Source: Elusimicrobia bacterium GWB2_63_22 (GTDB lineage: Bacteria; Elusimicrobiota; Elusimicrobia; Elusimicrobiales; UBA9959). Taken from it: 64,000 nucleotides of DNA. Position 1 is the stretch's first letter. Every line of letters begins with the position of its first letter. This document shows positions 861-48,001 of the stretch, piece after piece. The notes beneath the pieces are model-generated. The model searched no databases and had not been told where the DNA came from. It worked only from the letters and a program-made list of their open reading frames with translations. Made by a program: the position numbers and the translations under genes. The DNA lies in assembly GCA_001799735.1 (NCBI GenBank), contig MGUA01000034.1:1-64000 (forward strand). The letters are read 5' to 3'.

Positions 861-1199
861 TTACGCCTTTATCATTATCAGCGCCATCTTGAACTTCTTG
901 ACGGCTTTCAGGGCGTGCGGCCGGTTGGCGGGCATGATGATGAACTCCCCGGCCTTCACCAACACCTTCTTGCGGTCGATGCTGATCTCCGCCTCGCCGT
1001 CGAGGATCTCCACCATCGCGTCAAAAGGCGCCGTATGCTCGGAGAGCCCCTGACCCTTGTCGAACGAGAAGATGGTGACGGTGCCCATCGGCTTCTGTAT
1101 GATGGTGCGGCTCACCACCGCGCCCGCGTCGTAACCCACCAGGTCTTTGGCCTTCAGAGCCTTACCCCTGAGATCTTCCTTGTTATCTTTTTTTATCAT
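861..1199 (-). CDS. Small cupin-domain protein
   Basis: A 112-residue single-domain cupin. The two half-motifs are visible: a GxxxxxHTxPFDxMVEILDGEAEI stretch around residues 51-74 and a second strand set ending in PANRPHAL around residues 93-100, which would supply metal-binding histidines. Such stand-alone cupins bind small ligands or metals; the substrate cannot be told from sequence. It starts 9 bp after the stop of the upstream permease with a GGAG site before the ATG, so it is co-transcribed with the efflux genes. A 138-bp gap separates it from the next ATPase, the only loose junction in the operon. Confidence 0.8.
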   Translation of the reverse strand: MIKKDNKEDLRGKALKAKDLVGYDAGAVVSRTIIQKPMGTVTIFSFDKGQGLSEHTAPFDAMVEILDGEAEISIDRKKVLVKAGEFIIMPANRPHALKAVKKFKMALIMIKA

Positions 1200-1207
1200 A
1201 AGTTCTC

Positions 1208-2308
1208 CTAGTTCAACGTCTGTTTGAATCTGTTGTAGGCGGCCGCGCCGGTAACTAAGGCCATCGCCGCGAGGGCCGACACGTTAAAAACAAAGACCGA
1301 CTGGTCCCCGCCCTTGAGCAGGATATTGCGCAGCAGCGTGGTGAAGTAGTAAAGCGGGTTGGCGTAGACCACGGGCTTGAGCAGGGCGGGCATGTTCTCT
1401 ACAGGGTACATTATTCCGCTCATCAGCACCGCGGGGAACAGGAAGATGAAGCCGCCCAGCATGGCCTGCTGCTGGTTTTTCGAGATGGTGGAGATCAGGG
1501 TGCCCACGCTCACCGTGGTGATGACGAAGGCCAGCGCGGCCGAGAATAGCCGCCAGAGCTCGCCCTTGACCGGCACGCCGAAGATCAGGAAGCCCGCCGC
1601 TATCACCAGGGCAGCGTTCGCCAGGCCCAGCACGATGTAGGGCAGGGTTTTACCCAGCAGGATCTCGTAGTTCTCCAACGGGGCCGAGACTATGGTCTCG
1701 AAGGTGCCCAGCTCCCGCTCGCGCGTCAGGGACATGCTGGTAAGGATGATGGTGACCAGGCAGACTATCATGCCCATCACGCCCGGCACCATGAAGACCG
1801 GCGATTCCATCTCCGGGTTATAGATTATCCGCACGTCGAAGCCGAACGGGGCCGCGGGGGCCGGCAGGCCCGCCTCCGCCGCCGCGTGCGCGGAGAAGAT
1901 GGCGCGAGCGTAGGCCTCCACGCTGCGCGCCCTGGTCACGCTGGTGCCGTCCACCAGCAGCTGCACGCCGCCGCGACTCCGCGCGGCTTCCCGCGCGAAC
2001 CCGCCCGCCGGGAACACCAGCGCCGCGTCGGCGGCGCCGGAGACCACCAGGTCCTCGGGGGCGCGCCCTTCCGCGGCCACCGGCACGAACCAGCCCGAGG
2101 CGGTAAACCGCTGCGCCAGGCGGCGCGCGGCCGCGTCCGAAGGGGCGTATACCGCGGCCAGCTTTATATTCTTGATCTCGCTCGAAAGCGCCAGGCCGAA
2201 AATGGTCATCTGTATCATCGGCATGACGAACAGGATCATCTTCATGCGGGGGTCCCGCAGGACCTGCGCGAATTCTTTCCTTATAAAAGCGAGCAGCGTG
2301 CGTTTCAT
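1208..2308 (-). CDS. ABC-2 type permease, YbhR/YbhS-like (second copy)
   Basis: A 366-residue inner-membrane permease. It has an N-terminal membrane segment after the RKE(F)AQVLRDPR motif typical of YhhJ/YbhR proteins, a large extracytoplasmic domain, then five or so hydrophobic helices from about residue 175 to the end. The RERELGTFE motif (coupling helix) precedes SAPLENYEILLGK. Start ATG at 2308 overlaps the upstream permease stop by 4 bp, showing translational coupling. The reading frame is open to 2821 but the extra stretch is shadow sequence inside the neighbour. With the paired permease it should form the heterodimeric channel served by the two ATPases upstream. Confidence 0.92.
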   Translation of the reverse strand: MKRTLLAFIRKEFAQVLRDPRMKMILFVMPMIQMTIFGLALSSEIKNIKLAAVYAPSDAAARRLAQRFTASGWFVPVAAEGRAPEDLVVSGAADAALVFPAGGFAREAARSRGGVQLLVDGTSVTRARSVEAYARAIFSAHAAAEAGLPAPAAPFGFDVRIIYNPEMESPVFMVPGVMGMIVCLVTIILTSMSLTRERELGTFETIVSAPLENYEILLGKTLPYIVLGLANAALVIAAGFLIFGVPVKGELWRLFSAALAFVITTVSVGTLISTISKNQQQAMLGGFIFLFPAVLMSGIMYPVENMPALLKPVVYANPLYYFTTLLRNILLKGGDQSVFVFNVSALAAMALVTGAAAYNRFKQTLN

Positions 2309-3423
2309 GGTTCCAGGTCCGTTTTGAATTTTTTGAAGGCCGCGGCCAGCAGCAGCGCGCAGAGCCCCGCCAGCGCCGCTAGCGGCAGGGCCAGGTCGGC
2401 CGCGCCCGCCCCGCGGATGGTCACGCCGCGGGCGACCTCCATGAACCACCGGGGAGACAGGACCATGGTGAAATACCGGAAGAAGGCGGGCATGCTCTCC
2501 ACCGGGAAGATGAAGCCCGACAGCAGCAGCGAGGGCAGCAGCCCGCTTATCATGGAAAGCTGCATGGCCAGCTGCTGCTGGCGCGTCACCACCGAGATCA
2601 CTATGCCCTGGGACAGGGAGGCCAGCGCGAAAAGCACCGTGCCGGAGAGGAAGAGCAGGTGGCTGCCGCGGAAAGGCACCCCGAAGCCGAAGCGCGCCAC
2701 CAGGTTGACGAAGAAGACCCCGGCCAGGATGAGCCCGACGTAAGGGGCGATCTTGCCGGCTATGATCTCGGCGGGCCGCAGCGGGGTGGAGAGCAGCAGC
2801 TCCATGGAACCGTTCTCCCATTCCCGCGCCACCGTGAGCGCCGTCATGAGTATCGACAGCAGGCCGATGATGATGACCGCCAGGCCGGGGATGACGAACC
2901 AGCGGCTGTTGAGCTCCGGGTTGTACATGAAGCGAGTCTTCAGCGGCACCGGGTCGGCGGGAACCGCGGCGCCGAACTTGCGCAGCGCCGCCCCGGTGAG
3001 CCCGGGCAGGTAGCCCAGCACGGCCTGCGCCTTGGAATTGTCGGTGCCGTCCACGATAAACTGCACCCGCGGCCCTCCGCCGCCTCCCAGCTCGCGGCCG
3101 AAGCCCGGCTCTACCAGCAGCGCCGCCGAGTAGCGCCCGGAGTCCAGCCCGCGCGCGGCGGCGGCCGGGCTGTCCACCGCACCGGGCAGAAAATAGCCCG
3201 AGCTCTCAAATACCGACACCAGTTGCCGGGAATGGCGCGTATTGTCCCTGTCGTAAACGCCCAGGGCCAGGTTCTTTACGTCGAAATCGATAGCGAAGCC
3301 GAAGAAGACCACCAGCACCACGGGCAGGCCCAGCACCAGCGCCAGCGTGAACGGGTCGCGCATTATATGCATGACCTCCTTGCGGGCCACGGCCGCGGCT
3401 CGGTGCAGGTCGAAGCCGGTCAT
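2305..3423 (-). CDS. ABC-2 type permease, YbhS/YbhR-like (first copy)
   Basis: A 372-residue inner-membrane permease paralogous to the next gene: both have an ARKEVMHIMRDP-type N-terminus, an extracytoplasmic domain of about 140 residues and a C-terminal helical bundle with the REWENGSMELLLSTPLRP coupling region. In the E. coli YbhFSR exporter two such subunits pair. ATG at 3420-3423 overlaps the stop of the upstream ATPase by 4 bp. The substrate is unknown; related systems export drugs, cations or dyes together with a TolC-type outer-membrane channel, which is encoded in this operon. Confidence 0.92.
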   Translation of the reverse strand: MTGFDLHRAAAVARKEVMHIMRDPFTLALVLGLPVVLVVFFGFAIDFDVKNLALGVYDRDNTRHSRQLVSVFESSGYFLPGAVDSPAAAARGLDSGRYSAALLVEPGFGRELGGGGGPRVQFIVDGTDNSKAQAVLGYLPGLTGAALRKFGAAVPADPVPLKTRFMYNPELNSRWFVIPGLAVIIIGLLSILMTALTVAREWENGSMELLLSTPLRPAEIIAGKIAPYVGLILAGVFFVNLVARFGFGVPFRGSHLLFLSGTVLFALASLSQGIVISVVTRQQQLAMQLSMISGLLPSLLLSGFIFPVESMPAFFRYFTMVLSPRWFMEVARGVTIRGAGAADLALPLAALAGLCALLLAAAFKKFKTDLEP

Positions 3424-4346
3424 CTTTCTATCCCCTCTACCAGGCGTATGAACACGTCTTCCAGCGAAGGTTTTATCAGGGCCCGCGCGGCGGTGGCCGG
3501 CAGGGAGGAAAGAGCGGCGTCCATAGCCGCCTTGTCCCTGAAGGCGGCGTGCCAGCGCATGCCTTGCGGCGACAGCTCCAGGAGGCCCTGGGTTTTCTCA
3601 AGGCCCTCGAGAAAGCCCTCGGGAGCGGGGCCGTTAAAATCCAGTTCGGCCATGGGGCCGGGGAAAGCCGAAGCCTTCAGCTCGTCGGGGGAGCCCAGGG
3701 CTATCAGCCGGCCGGTACGCATCAGCGCTATGCGGCCGCACTGCTCGGCCTCGTCCATGTAATGCGTGGTGACGATGACCGTCTTGCCGAGCGCGGTGAC
3801 CTTGCGTATCAGCGCCCAGAAGCGCGCGCGCGAGGCCGGCGAGACGCCCGCCGTGGGCTCGTCCAGGAAAACGATCTCGGGGTCGTGCAGCATGGCCGCG
3901 GCCAGCGACAGCTCCTGCTTGACGCCGCCGGGCAGCGAGGAGACCATGGTGGAGAGGGGGCTGTCGAAAGCGATCAGTTCGAAGAGTTCCGCTCTGCGCC
4001 GCAGGGCGTAAGCCGGCTCCAGTTTGCGCAGGCCGGCCGCGAAATCCAGGTTCTCCCCCACCGTCAGGTCGTTGTAGAGCGTAAACTTCTGCGACATGTA
4101 ACCGACTTTTCCTTTTATGCCCTTGCCGCCGTCGGAGAAATCCAGGCCGCCCACCGACGCCGAGCCGGAAGAGGGGATCAACAGGCCGCAAAGCATCCTG
4201 ATGGTAGTGGTCTTGCCGGCGCCGTTGGCCCCGAGGAAACCGAAGATCTCCCCCTTCTCGACGCGGAAGGAAACGTCGTCTACGGCGGTGAAATCTCCGA
4301 ACTTTATGGAGAGGCCTTTAACCTCCAGTGCGGGGCCGGGAGTCAT
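3420..4346 (-). CDS. ABC transporter ATP-binding protein, DrrA/YbhF-like
   Basis: A 308-residue ATPase: Walker A GANGAGKTT, Walker B VFLDEPTAGVSP and a switch histidine in VTTHYMDEA. The signature loop reads SLPGGVKQE, a slightly unusual LSGG variant. A C-terminal extension of about 80 residues (after residue 225) is typical of DrrA-like ATPases that drive ABC-2 permeases. In E. coli YbhF two ATPase halves are fused; here they are two genes, this one and the one before it. It overlaps both neighbours by 4 bp (ATGA). Confidence 0.93.
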   Translation of the reverse strand: MTPGPALEVKGLSIKFGDFTAVDDVSFRVEKGEIFGFLGANGAGKTTTIRMLCGLLIPSSGSASVGGLDFSDGGKGIKGKVGYMSQKFTLYNDLTVGENLDFAAGLRKLEPAYALRRRAELFELIAFDSPLSTMVSSLPGGVKQELSLAAAMLHDPEIVFLDEPTAGVSPASRARFWALIRKVTALGKTVIVTTHYMDEAEQCGRIALMRTGRLIALGSPDELKASAFPGPMAELDFNGPAPEGFLEGLEKTQGLLELSPQGMRWHAAFRDKAAMDAALSSLPATAARALIKPSLEDVFIRLVEGIER

Positions 4347-5062
4347 TTAGCGCCCCCCCTTATAAATATTTCTTCAAAGCTCGCGGCCCCGGCGGCCTTC
4401 AGCACCGCACGCGGCTCGCCGGAGGCCAGCAGCCGCCCGGCGTCCAGCAGGTGCACCCGGGCGCAGCGCTCGGCCTCGTCCATATAGGCGGTGGAGACGA
4501 TGATCAGCATGCCGGAGGCGCTCTGAGCGTAAAGCAGTTCCCAGAACTCGCGGCGGCTGATAGGGTCCACGCCGTTGGTGGGCTCGTCGAGCAGCAGGGC
4601 CGACGGCGACTGCAGCAGCGCGCACATGAGCCCGAGCTTCTTGTACATGCCGCCGGACAGCTGCCCGGCGCGGCGGGCGCTGAACTTCCCGAGGCGCGTT
4701 ATCTCCAGCAGTTCCGAGGAGCGCTGCTTAAAAGTGGCGGCGTCGAGCCGGTAGAGGTCCCGGAAAAACTCCAGGTGCTCGGCTATCGACAGGTCGGGGT
4801 AGAGGCTGGCCTGCTGCGGCATATAGGCCAGCCCCGGCCTGAATTCGGCAAAGGAGGAAGGCCGCCCGTCCTTAATGTAGGTCAGGCTCCCGGCCGACGG
4901 GCGCAGCAGGCCGGCCAGCAGGCGCAGGGCGGTGGTCTTGCCGGCCCCGTCAGAACCTATCAGCCCGTGTATCAGGCCGGCGGAAAAATCCAAAGAGACG
5001 CCCCGCAGCGCCGCTGTGGCGCCGAAATGCTTCTCCAGGTTTTCCGTCCGGATGGCGTACAT
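4343..5062 (-). CDS. ABC transporter ATP-binding protein, YbhF N-half-like
   Basis: A 239-residue ATPase with Walker A GSDGAGKTT, signature QLSGGMYKK, Walker B LLLDEPTNGVDP and the MDEAERC stretch seen in ABC-2 ATPases. The GSDGAGKTT Walker A and the start MYAIRTENLEKHFG match the N-terminal half of YbhF. It begins 1 bp after the stop of the HlyD-type adaptor gene. With the next gene it probably makes a heterodimeric motor for the two permeases. Confidence 0.92.
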   Translation of the reverse strand: MYAIRTENLEKHFGATAALRGVSLDFSAGLIHGLIGSDGAGKTTALRLLAGLLRPSAGSLTYIKDGRPSSFAEFRPGLAYMPQQASLYPDLSIAEHLEFFRDLYRLDAATFKQRSSELLEITRLGKFSARRAGQLSGGMYKKLGLMCALLQSPSALLLDEPTNGVDPISRREFWELLYAQSASGMLIIVSTAYMDEAERCARVHLLDAGRLLASGEPRAVLKAAGAASFEEIFIRGGAK

Positions 5063-5063
5063 A

Positions 5064-5789
5064 TTATTCCGGCAGCTTTACCTCTATGGTCATGCCGGGC
5101 TTAAGCGTCTCGTCCGGGTTGGGGAAGGACACTTTTACGGCGAAGACCAGGCGCGTGCGTTCCTTGCGGGTCTGCACGTTCTTGGGCGTGAACTCGGCCT
5201 CCGACTGTATGACGGAGACTCGCCCGGGGAACTCGCGGTCCGCGGCCTCGGGCAGGTAGCCCTTCAGTTCCATCCCGGGCTTCAGAGCGGCCAGCGCGTC
5301 GTGCGGCACGTAGATATAGGCCCACACCTCGGAGAAGTCGGCTACCGTGGCCAGCTTCGTGCCCGGCGCCACCAGCTCCCCTTTCTCCTTGTAGGCGTAG
5401 AGCAGGCGGCCGGCCACAGGCGACTTGACCGAGCACCAGTCTACTTTAAGCGCCGAATCGTCGCGCCTGTATTTCAGGCGGTCGTAATTTTCTTTGGAGA
5501 CCGAGCCCCCGGCGTAAAGTTCTTCTGCTCGTTTGAAGTCGTCGGCGGCTATCCCCGCGGCCAACTTAAGGTCGGCGCAGTCCAGGGCCGCTATGACCTG
5601 GCCCTTCTTCACGGGTTCCCCCTCGCGGGCGCCGTAGGAGTCTATAACGCCCGGGCTGCGCGCCGAAAGGTCTACCTCGGTGGCCTCTATGGTGCCGGCA
5701 TAGCGGAACTCTCCGCCGCTCCTCAACTTCAGAAATATGCCCGCCGCCACCGCGGCGATCAGTACGACAGGGATTATTTTCTTTTTCAT
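5064..5789 (-). CDS. HlyD/YbhG-family membrane fusion (periplasmic adaptor) protein
   Basis: A 241-residue adaptor: N-terminal membrane anchor (residues 4-20), a lipoyl-like half with the GTIEATEVDLSARSPG segment (about 31-46), an alpha-hairpin, the second lipoyl half (SPVAGRLLYAYKEKGE, about 124-139) and a beta-barrel ending in LKPGMTIEVKLPE. At about 30-40 residues the hairpin is much shorter than in YbhG (about 330 aa in total), so contact with the outer-membrane channel may be short or rely on a long channel partner. It lies between the tolC-like gene and the ATPase, consistent with a tripartite pump. Confidence 0.9.
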   Translation of the reverse strand: MKKKIIPVVLIAAVAAGIFLKLRSGGEFRYAGTIEATEVDLSARSPGVIDSYGAREGEPVKKGQVIAALDCADLKLAAGIAADDFKRAEELYAGGSVSKENYDRLKYRRDDSALKVDWCSVKSPVAGRLLYAYKEKGELVAPGTKLATVADFSEVWAYIYVPHDALAALKPGMELKGYLPEAADREFPGRVSVIQSEAEFTPKNVQTRKERTRLVFAVKVSFPNPDETLKPGMTIEVKLPE

Positions 5790-5790
5790 A

Positions 5791-7122
5791 TTAGTTCTCC
5801 GTCAGGCTGTCCAGTACGGCCAGCTTTAAAAGCAGCTCCGCGTTGGCCGAGGCCAGCGTGGTCCGGGCCTGCAGGGCCTTAAGATTTGCGCTCTCCACTT
5901 CCAGCCAGGTGCCGCCTCCGGACTTATAGGCGTCGTAGGCCAGCCGCGCCGCCTCGGCCGCGTCGTCCACCGCCTCTATGTTGAGGCTCTGCTCCTCCAT
6001 CAGGGCGCTATAGTCGCCCAGGGCCGCGGCGTAGTCCCTGGCGGCGGACCGCGCGGCGTCGTCGCGCCTGGCCGAGGTTGCCTTGGAATAAAGGTCGTTC
6101 TCCCGCTCCCGTTGGGCCAGCCGCCCGCTCTCGAACAGCGGCAGGTTCAGCGACAGCGAGGCGGAATTCTGCAGGAAGGAGTAGATGTTGGGGCCGTTGG
6201 GATAATCCAGGGAACTCCTGGCGCCGAGCACCAGGCGCGGCAGTTTTTCCCGCCGCTGGGCCAGGGCGGAGGCGCGGTAGGCGGCGGCCGTCTGGTTGAG
6301 CGCCTCCACCGCCGGGAGACTATCAGGCAGGGCGCGCGCGGCGGCGGGCAGCAGGGCGGGCAGGATGTCCTCGTAGGCCTCGGCCCTTACCAGCAGGCCG
6401 GCCGCCCCGTCAAAGACGCTCCCGGCCATGCGGGCGTCCAGCGGCAGGCCGGAGTCCGGAGGCAGGCTGCGCCCGGTATCGAAAGCGAAATCACGCAGGG
6501 CCCCGGCCAGGTCGGCGCGGGCCCTCAGCAGGTCCCGCCGCCGGGCGGTGGTCTCCTGGCGCGCCCTTATGCCGTCCAGGCGGCTGCGCGAGCCGGCCTT
6601 AACGCCCAGCTCCACGTCCCTGTACTGGGACAGGGACAACTGCAGGGTATTGCCGATGAGGAACACCCGCTCCAGCGCCAGCTGCAGGCGGAAATAGGCC
6701 GCCCTGGCCTTCAGCACCGTCTGGCGGCGCGCATTGTCGGCCTCGGCCGAACGGGCCGCGGCGGACCGGCGCGCGGCCTCGCGGCCGTAGCGCAGGCTGC
6801 CGGTGTCCAGGGTCCAGTAGGCAGAAGGCCCTATGGAATAAGTCCAGTTATCCCCCATAGGCTTGGGGCCGCCCATGGCGGGCGGCAGGGAGATCTGCGG
6901 CACTACCTGGGCGTAGCGGAGGCTGCCCTCCAGGCTCAGGCGCGGGCGCAGCAGCGAGGACGCGGCGGCGGCGCCGGCGGCCGAGGCTTCGGCAGAGAGT
7001 CTGGCGCTAAGGTATTGGCCGGAAGAGGCGAGGGCGTCCTTCTCGGCCGCGCTCAGGGTAAGCGTCAGCTCTTCGGCCCGGGCTGCGCCGACGAACATAA
7101 GGAGTACTAATATATATCTCAT
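5791..7122 (-). CDS. TolC-family outer-membrane efflux protein
   Basis: A 443-residue outer-membrane channel. A signal peptide is clear (MRYILVLLMFVGAARA, cleavage near residue 16), followed by two TolC repeats rich in long amphipathic helices; the structural repeat is seen as ARAAYFRLQLALERV near the middle and ARDYAAALGDYSAL near the end. The ATG at 7122 overlaps the TetR stop by 4 bp; the open frame up to 7338 lies inside tetR and is rejected. It should form the outer-membrane exit duct for the ABC-2 exporter encoded downstream. Confidence 0.92.
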   Translation of the reverse strand: MRYILVLLMFVGAARAEELTLTLSAAEKDALASSGQYLSARLSAEASAAGAAAASSLLRPRLSLEGSLRYAQVVPQISLPPAMGGPKPMGDNWTYSIGPSAYWTLDTGSLRYGREAARRSAAARSAEADNARRQTVLKARAAYFRLQLALERVFLIGNTLQLSLSQYRDVELGVKAGSRSRLDGIRARQETTARRRDLLRARADLAGALRDFAFDTGRSLPPDSGLPLDARMAGSVFDGAAGLLVRAEAYEDILPALLPAAARALPDSLPAVEALNQTAAAYRASALAQRREKLPRLVLGARSSLDYPNGPNIYSFLQNSASLSLNLPLFESGRLAQRERENDLYSKATSARRDDAARSAARDYAAALGDYSALMEEQSLNIEAVDDAAEAARLAYDAYKSGGGTWLEVESANLKALQARTTLASANAELLLKLAVLDSLTEN

Positions 7123-7765: not shown

Positions 7766-7797
7766 TTATACTTCCGTATAATTATACATCCGTATAA
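7766..7797. promoter_or_regulatory. Twin TetR operators: two abutting 16-bp palindromes
   Basis: TTATAC-4-GTATAA occurs twice without a gap, at 7766-7781 (spacer ttcc) and 7782-7797 (spacer atcc). The upstream palindrome fills the spacer of the promoter and overlaps its -10 box; the downstream one covers the likely start of transcription. Size, symmetry and position fit TetR operators bound by two dimers. The regulator is inferred from position. Confidence 0.8.
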
Positions 7798-7809
7798 CAA
7801 CCTTGTCAA
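7781..7809 (-). promoter_or_regulatory. Sigma-70 promoter of the tetR-efflux operon
   Basis: On the minus strand a perfect -35 (TTGACA, 7804-7809) and perfect -10 (TATAAT, 7781-7786) are separated by exactly 17 bp. Transcription should begin near 7774, inside the operator pair. A promoter this strong makes sense if it is normally held off by the repressor. Confidence 0.85.
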
Positions 7810-7813
7810 GGCA

Positions 7814-7865
7814 ATTCGGGGGACACAATACTTAATTCATGAATTAAGTATTGTGTCCCCCGAAT
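7814..7865. repeat. 52-bp perfect palindrome (REP-like)
   Basis: The 26-bp arms are exact reverse complements with no loop; the core of each arm is GGGGGACACAATACTTAATT. A related hairpin with the same GGGGACACAA(T/C)ACTTAA arm lies at 47680-47731. Arms of this type resemble dispersed palindromic elements mobilised by IS200-like (RAYT) transposases; I recall such motifs from other genomes but cannot confirm it here. Confidence 0.75.
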
Positions 7866-7894
7866 AAAAAACGCCCCGGTTGCCCGGGGCGTTT
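7866..7894 (-). terminator. Rho-independent terminator of the RRM gene
   Basis: On the minus strand a 9-bp stem (ACGCCCCGG, 7871-7879, pairing with 7884-7892) with a 4-nt loop is followed by six T residues, 25-50 bp after the RRM stop codon. Confidence 0.85.
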
Positions 7895-47760: not shown

Positions 47761-47818
47761 GTCCCGGAGCCAAAAAATAAAGGCCGCTTTGCGCGGCCTT
47801 TAAATTTGGCTCCGGGAC
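47761..47818. repeat. Inverted copy of the tRNA-Gln 3' end
   Basis: GTCCCGGAGCCAAA (47761-47774) is an exact inverted repeat of TTTGGCTCCGGGAC (47805-47818), which is the 3' end and CCA of tRNA-Gln. The terminator hairpin lies inside the pair. Confidence 0.7.
47772..47801 (-). terminator. Terminator after tRNA-Gln
   Basis: AAAGGCCGC/GCGGCCTTT (47779-47787 with 47793-47801) and a T-run on the minus strand, 5 bp after the tRNA. Confidence 0.8.
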
Positions 47819-47880
47819 TAGGATTTGAACCTAGACAAAGGGATTCAGAGTCCCTTGTGCTACCGTTACACCATCCCGGA
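47807..47880 (-). tRNA. tRNA-Gln (CUG anticodon)
   Basis: A complete cloverleaf can be drawn: acceptor TCCGGGA/TCCCGGA, D-arm GTGT/GCAC, anticodon arm AGGGA-CTCTGAA-TCCCT with anticodon CTG, T-arm CTAGG-TTCAAAT-CCTAG, G73 and encoded CCA. It reads CAG glutamine codons. The DNA is 74 nt. Confidence 0.95.
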
Positions 47881-47930
47881 ATAAAGCTACAGGTCTATTA
47901 TATAAATTTCCGCGGCTGTCTGAAAGTATA

Positions 47931-48001
47931 TCGGGGCACCGGGAATCGAACCCGGGACTCATGCACCCAAAGCACGCGTGATACCATTTCACAATGCCCC
48001 G
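47931..48001 (-). tRNA. tRNA-Pro (UGG anticodon)
   Basis: Acceptor CGGGGCA/TGCCCCG, D-arm GTGA/TCAC, anticodon arm CGTGC-TTTGGGT-GCATG with anticodon TGG, T-arm CCGGG-TTCGATT-CCCGG, discriminator A. CCA is not encoded. It reads CCA and probably other proline codons. It lies upstream of tRNA-Gln on the same strand, probably in one transcript. Confidence 0.93.

Follow-up and report, generated by a model that had tools for sequence, protein, structure and literature searches.

At positions 7766–7809 of the window (the whole 64,000-nucleotide stretch analysed here, from an Elusimicrobiota genome), two palindromes and a promoter are interleaved ahead of a tetR-like gene. Which protein would read these palindromes, and why are there two? 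The answer we favour, at a probability of roughly 0.9, is that a TetR-family repressor, encoded first in its own multidrug-type ABC efflux operon, here controls the promoter from which it is made.

Anatomy of the tetR promoter and its operon

Sequence reading and a pattern search both place TTATACTTCCGTATAA at 7766–7781 and TTATACATCCGTATAA at 7782–7797 with a gap of 0, bearing out the two gapless 16-bp TTATAC-4-GTATAA palindromes proposed by the sequence-only reading (Table 1). At ≤2 mismatches the 64-kb window has these two matches only (0.31 expected), and a count of 2 was reached in 1 of 100 shuffles. The perfect TTGACA-17-TATAAT promoter of the same reading also stands, scoring 12/12 on the minus strand. 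Its further claim, that both sites lie within the promoter, holds for the upstream palindrome (7782–7797) but not for the other: the −10 box spans the junction of the two palindromes, and 7766–7781 holds only the last base of that box, covering the expected start instead. The RRM gene upstream runs in the same direction as the tetR operon and ends in a terminator-like hairpin, and thus the promoter at 7781–7809 is taken to serve the tetR operon.

Table 1 Features of the tetR locus, with the genes in operon order
Feature	Position in window	Strand	Evidence or remark
Terminator-like hairpin of upstream RRM gene	7869..7894	−	Parts the RRM gene from the tetR promoter
−35 box TTGACA	7804..7809	−	TTGACA at the 17-bp position in 47/73 aligned promoters
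Operator 1 (predicted)	7782..7797	−	TTATACGGATGTATAA; most of the promoter spacer and first five −10 bases; half-site columns kept (73 promoters)
−10 box TATAAT	7781..7786	−	Last five bases of operator 1 and first base of operator 2; TATAAT in 66/73
Operator 2 (predicted)	7766..7781	−	TTATACGGAAGTATAA; abuts operator 1; over the expected transcription start
Expected transcription start	7772..7776	−	Within operator 2; placed from the −10 position
tetR, TetR-family regulator, 209 aa	7119..7748	−	PF00440, E 5e-13; model pLDDT 91.3; TetR-family structural matches
tolC-like outer membrane efflux protein	5791..7122	−	PF02321
hlyD-like adaptor, YbhG relative	5064..5789	−	PF16576/PF13437; BLAST to YbhG 1.7e-15
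ABC ATPase	4343..5062	−	Best match YbhF first half
ABC ATPase	3420..4346	−	Best match YbhF second half
ABC-2 permease	2305..3423	−	Best match YbhS
ABC-2 permease	1208..2320	−	Best match YbhR
Cupin protein	861..1199	−	3′ of the second permease in 24/30 family-f1 stretches reaching that far

Relatives show the same gene order, and the pump genes have homology to a YbhGFSR-type exporter (best BLAST E-values from 1.7e-15 to 7e-73). The regulator carries a TetR_N helix-turn-helix (PF00440, 49 bits against a cut-off of 24) on an all-helical TetR fold, judged by its structure model: 817 of the 999 aligned chains reach Z ≥ 8, and the top rows are TetR-family proteins. A closer naming from sequence was tried and dropped, Pfam giving TetR_N alone and NCBIfam 13 matches, all below their cut-offs; a phmmer search of the PDB with the regulator returned mostly N-terminal matches (60/70 among the matches listed). 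Searching plasmids by tblastn gave 20 records that all fall short of 80% query coverage, and the 15 listed were ≤40% identical. Among the titles listed by searches of the open-licence literature, no paper deals with the regulator or its motif.

The DNA directly upstream of the −35 box is a 52-bp perfect palindrome (7814–7865), formed by 26-nt arms with no loop. Its arm motif has 31 matches in the genome (≤3 mismatches), mostly as close inverted pairs, and the ORF lying between one wider pair of arms (C23:3883 and C23:4685) encodes a Y1 (IS200-like) transposase, so that the palindrome resembles a REP-type element accompanied by the transposase belonging to it. Four other loci (L050, L052, L054 and L074) have different inverted repeats at the same place upstream of tetR, and at five more (L036, L041, L042, L046 and L047) the contig ends 79–273 bp upstream of the gene, perhaps where such repeats broke the assembly.

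The whole genome contains the two exact window sites and two one-mismatch sites, one directly 5′ of a B12-binding radical SAM gene (L003) and one at an ORF start (L004); the reversed-pattern control also gives two matches, and with the counts equal we treated both sites as chance and not as a second regulon member. An exact-match scan of viral contigs gave no match. An RNA mechanism was rejected on two grounds: any transcript made from this promoter would begin downstream of operator 1, and Rfam, run across the 64-kb window at gathering thresholds, finds only two tRNAs, whose genes lie at 47810–48001 on the minus strand.

Conservation of the doublet and its pairing with tetR

A match to the regulator occurs in 58 of 101 genomes, own genome included (E 1e-10), giving 59 tetR loci: the window plus 58 from these 58 genomes, among which G008 has two. 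The doublet (≤3 mismatches in 24) is present at 53 of the 59, with a gap of 0 in 39 and of 3 bp in 14, the 3-bp gap reading TTA or TAA. The promoter is kept with it: of these 53 loci, 51 have a −35/−10 spacing of 17 and the other 2 one of 16, while the −35 box starts TTGAC in 49 and the −10 box is TATAAT in 51. The six loci that are not clear doublets comprise two genes without the recognition helix (L084 and L085), one single site (L089), two eroded copies (L092 and L095) and L106, a fragmentary gene with a diverged doublet 245 bp upstream.

Scanning 340 genomes of the phylum at ≤3 mismatches, we found 61 with the gap-0 doublet, another 23 with the gap-3 doublet and none with both; each of the 84 positive genomes has a single doublet. 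Reversed-pattern controls gave 2/340 (gap 0) and 4/340 (gap 3). For 82 of the 84, tetR lies directly beside the doublet (53 by alignment, 19 of 20 distant loci, 10 by coordinates; G271 was left out of the examination), so the motif expected ahead of tetR pump operons in related genomes is indeed there. A 2-mismatch doublet in family f20 (L176, 3005–3036) has no tetR within 6 kb, and is either chance or an orphan operator.

Which bases are kept tells more than the count. We aligned 73 promoters, 54 found via the protein and 19 via the motif (L084, L085, L089, L095 and L106 were left out); half-site columns are 79–100% conserved, compared with 28–73% for central columns and 37–85% for 14 downstream columns, conservation being partly built in for the 19 motif-found promoters. 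The downstream half of operator 2, which has no promoter role, is 79–99% conserved across the same 73. Since neither operator 1's left half nor operator 2's right half has a role in the promoter, the fact that both are kept indicates a bound protein at both sites. Could the palindromes be chance products of an AT-rich consensus −10 box? One inner half-site does overlap TATAAT, which is what such an origin would give. Against it, the outer half-sites are conserved although they serve no promoter function, the reversed-pattern controls are low, and under a first-order model of the window composition 3.06 Mb should contain 0.009 exact single sites and 2.5e-11 exact doublets. We give a chance origin a negligible probability and, on the conservation, regard it as excluded. 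The doublet is real, and very probably a deeply conserved autoregulatory double operator.

At eight distant loci (L162–L165, L170, L171, L174 and L177) the tetR start codon falls within operator 2 itself or 2–8 bases beyond its end. The sites there keep their position relative to the −10 box, and hence belong to the promoter and not to a leader; leaderless or nearly leaderless tetR mRNAs are predicted for these eight.

Whether the adjacent repressor is the reader can be judged from loci where gene and pump have come apart. All 58 genomes with a tetR match (of the 101) also have the adaptor gene, and eight of the 101 have the adaptor with no tetR match; the doublet is in none of the eight. Seven of these (L180–L186) have neither a TetR (best E 1.2) nor a doublet in the roughly 0.8–3.4 kb upstream of tolC, nor a single site with <2 mismatches upstream of that gene; in the eighth (G025) the contig starts inside the adaptor gene. 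The seven belong to family f2 and have kept tolC and hlyD with tetR absent upstream of tolC, possibly having changed to another control.

The converse comes from the two paralogues L084 and L085, 42–45% identical, in which the recognition-helix segment is missing from the alignment and the doublet is absent; they are second TetR-like genes, with no pump genes in the stretch read. Among homologues at only 31–39% identity, by comparison, 18 of 21 have the doublet (the exceptions being L089, L092 and L095), and the VNLGMF segment is kept in 18/18 of those 21 that could be placed in the helix alignment. By this survey the doublet accompanies a TetR predicted to be competent for DNA binding, not the pump. 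A different DNA-binding protein reading the palindromes would have to leave no doublet where the pump persists without tetR, and none at the paralogues lacking a recognition helix; we hold it to be very improbable. The absence of the doublet in both situations argues that the palindromes are almost certainly the adjacent TetR-family repressor's own operator, and the co-occurrence across the phylum, with 0/8 tetR-less relatives, upholds the original prediction of TetR operators on the gene's own promoter.

Site spacing, outer half-sites and cooperativity

By profile search at E 1e-15, 131 of 340 genomes have this TetR, and we inspected the DNA 5′ of the gene at 54 further loci chosen for missing the gap-0 or gap-3 doublet (two of them, L209 and L211, are truncated by contig ends). 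By our criteria, seven have doublets with a gap of 1 or 2 (six in f21, one in f2), seven have two sites 14–23 bp apart, some with a −35-like box between, 19 have weaker doublets, four only the inner GTATAATTATAC, eight a single site and nine none. Four f21 loci (L235–L238) have, besides the palindrome of the promoter itself, a second one farther upstream, and a TTGAC-like −35 box separates them.

Gaps of 0, 1, 2 and 3 bp place the site centres 16–19 bp apart, a range of about 100 degrees of turn; the gap-1 and gap-2 cases are mostly from the more diverged f21 homologues. We mapped the gap labels on a quick tree in which several branches are weak; 5 changes account for them, against a shuffled mean of 14.3. 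Gap 0 appears to be ancestral, with 3 bp gained in f2 and a return to 0 at least once later. As all gaps from 0 to 3 bp occur, no single rotational phase is required.

How would two dimers share such a stretch? They may act independently, the second site being kept because either dimer blocks the polymerase and two repress more tightly, a reading to which we give an even chance. Its support is the tolerance of spacing changes, the single-site and upstream-second-site layouts of the diverged loci, and the precedent of tetO; free adjacency would nonetheless predict wider gaps, and 0 of the 53 clear doublets have one of 4–12 bp. Slightly less probable, in our estimate, is the cooperative binding proposed by the sequence-only reading, in which a fixed protein contact would join two dimers on opposite faces of the DNA into one 32-bp unit, in the manner of QacR. 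The sites are 0 or 3 bp apart in 53 of the 59 loci of the order, gap-0 centres lie 16 bp (about 1.5 turns) apart, the outer half-sites co-vary, and the QacR–DNA chain 1jt0 is among the tied structural matches of the regulator (Z 15.8, 2.8 Å over 180 residues). The 4-bp half-site spacing is also that given for QacR-like regulators, which PMC6018408 describes as cooperative on overlapping sites. On the other side, across gaps of 0–3 bp the second dimer would turn through as much as roughly 100 degrees, gap 3 is kept through most of a family and was apparently reverted at least once, and PMC3037858 reports no sign of cooperativity for tetO1/O2. The 0–3 bp variation argues against one rigid dimer–dimer contact; DNA-mediated or flexible cooperativity may be compatible with it.

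The outer half-sites vary in a manner of their own. In some class-level relatives both have become CTGGTC or TTAGTC-like, with their complements, and the inner left half GTATAA, being the −10 box, is kept. Such changed outer halves occur in four f15 loci (L197, L198, L200 and L204) and in one of f14 (L195), where the inner right half is changed as well. The two outer halves match exactly in 44 of 84 loci, more often than when permuted within groups (P 0.0002, uncorrected for relatedness). The coupling comes from the distant relatives (12/33, P 0.0004); taken alone, neither f1 (P 0.15) nor f2 (P 0.10) shows it significantly.

Residue 41 of the regulator starts the recognition helix predicted by the structure model (41–47). 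Of the 11 loci in which T is missing from position 4 of both outer halves, 8 have V, A or P at residue 41, as do 2 of the remaining 73. Counted from the protein side, both outer halves are changed in 8/10 V/A/P rows and 3/74 T/L rows (Fisher P 1.6e-7, with only 3–5 independent pairs). Mutual information does not put residue 41 among its 12 top columns, and L071 has P at this residue yet retains TTATAC-type sites. We consider residue 41 suggestive as a specificity determinant. These strands could be combined into a single picture, in which a 32-bp ancient operator–promoter unit has its −10 half frozen, its outer halves (TTATAC in the majority of lineages, CTGGTC or TTAGTC in some class-level relatives) co-evolve with each other and with the recognition helix, and cooperativity through DNA shape, not through a fixed contact between proteins, survives shifts of 1–3 bp; as a whole we rate this composite as unlikely.

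Relation to known repressors and proposed mechanism

By gene order, the nearest known system is E. coli CecR (YbiH)–YbhGFSR, in which a TetR-family gene also comes first, followed by an HlyD-type adaptor, an ABC ATPase and two ABC-2 permeases, the pump proteins being homologous to those of the window. PMC8249747 presents CecR as a single-target regulator that acts on its own operon and on rhlE. The window operon differs in including tolC and in having YbhF split in two, and the regulators differ more. CecR_C (PF09209) matches E. coli CecR at 4e-35 and the window TetR not at all at E 0.001; the DNA upstream of cecR has one candidate palindrome, around AATCAATCATTTGATT, where the window has TTATAC-4-GTATAA twice. 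Foldseek ranks CecR (9i1x) as its second match, and a finer structural alignment leaves FadR, EthR2, QacR and others tied at Z about 15–16. Lacking a CecR_C match, with a different palindrome and structural ties to FadR, EthR2 and QacR, the window regulator is best classed as a TetR-family pump repressor like many others, not as a CecR-type protein.

Tn10 TetR and its operators tetO1 and tetO2 share a TetR-family repressor, two palindromic operators, autoregulation and an efflux target, and in the window, too, the promoter of the regulator carries a pair of like palindromes. The two tetO sites stand apart, about 30 bp from centre to centre, and belong to divergent promoters, whereas those of the window abut on one promoter. 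The QacR/qacA operator shares a dimer pair, the 4-bp half-site spacing, an overall inverted repeat, a pump target and a similar fold; QacR dimers are described as occupying overlapping sites within 28 bp, as against two complete, non-overlapping palindromes in 32 bp here. The sequence-only reading had thought tandem like operators rare among TetR-type regulators, which did not survive comparison: the accessible part of PMC3511530 gives repeated palindromes for several such regulators, with three each for Streptomyces SCO7222 and ActR, those of SCO7222 being perfect. Tandem sites as such are therefore not new. The SCO7222 and ActR sites lie between divergent genes and, in that part of the source, are not described as flush or woven through a promoter.

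From the sites, the promoter, their conservation and the pairing of doublet with tetR, all established directly by the sequences, we infer the steps of binding, dimer stoichiometry, repression and ligand release. Each 16-bp palindrome would be bound by one repressor dimer. The dimer on operator 1 would occupy most of the −35/−10 spacer and the −10 box, and that on operator 2 the start; either alone would exclude RNA polymerase, and two would raise occupancy. Upon binding its ligand the repressor would let go and the consensus-like promoter would fire, and with repressor and pump made together a negative feedback would follow. The locus is in this sense very likely a pump switch that controls itself, and its general type is already known.

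With the window, a regulator subfamily of a phylum known mostly from metagenome assemblies gains a target and a confidently assigned operator motif. The natural series of spacings (16, 17, 18 and 19 bp between centres), together with the changed outer half-sites, offers a test case for cooperativity and specificity, which for these flush tandem TetR-family operators would be testable with a few short DNAs.
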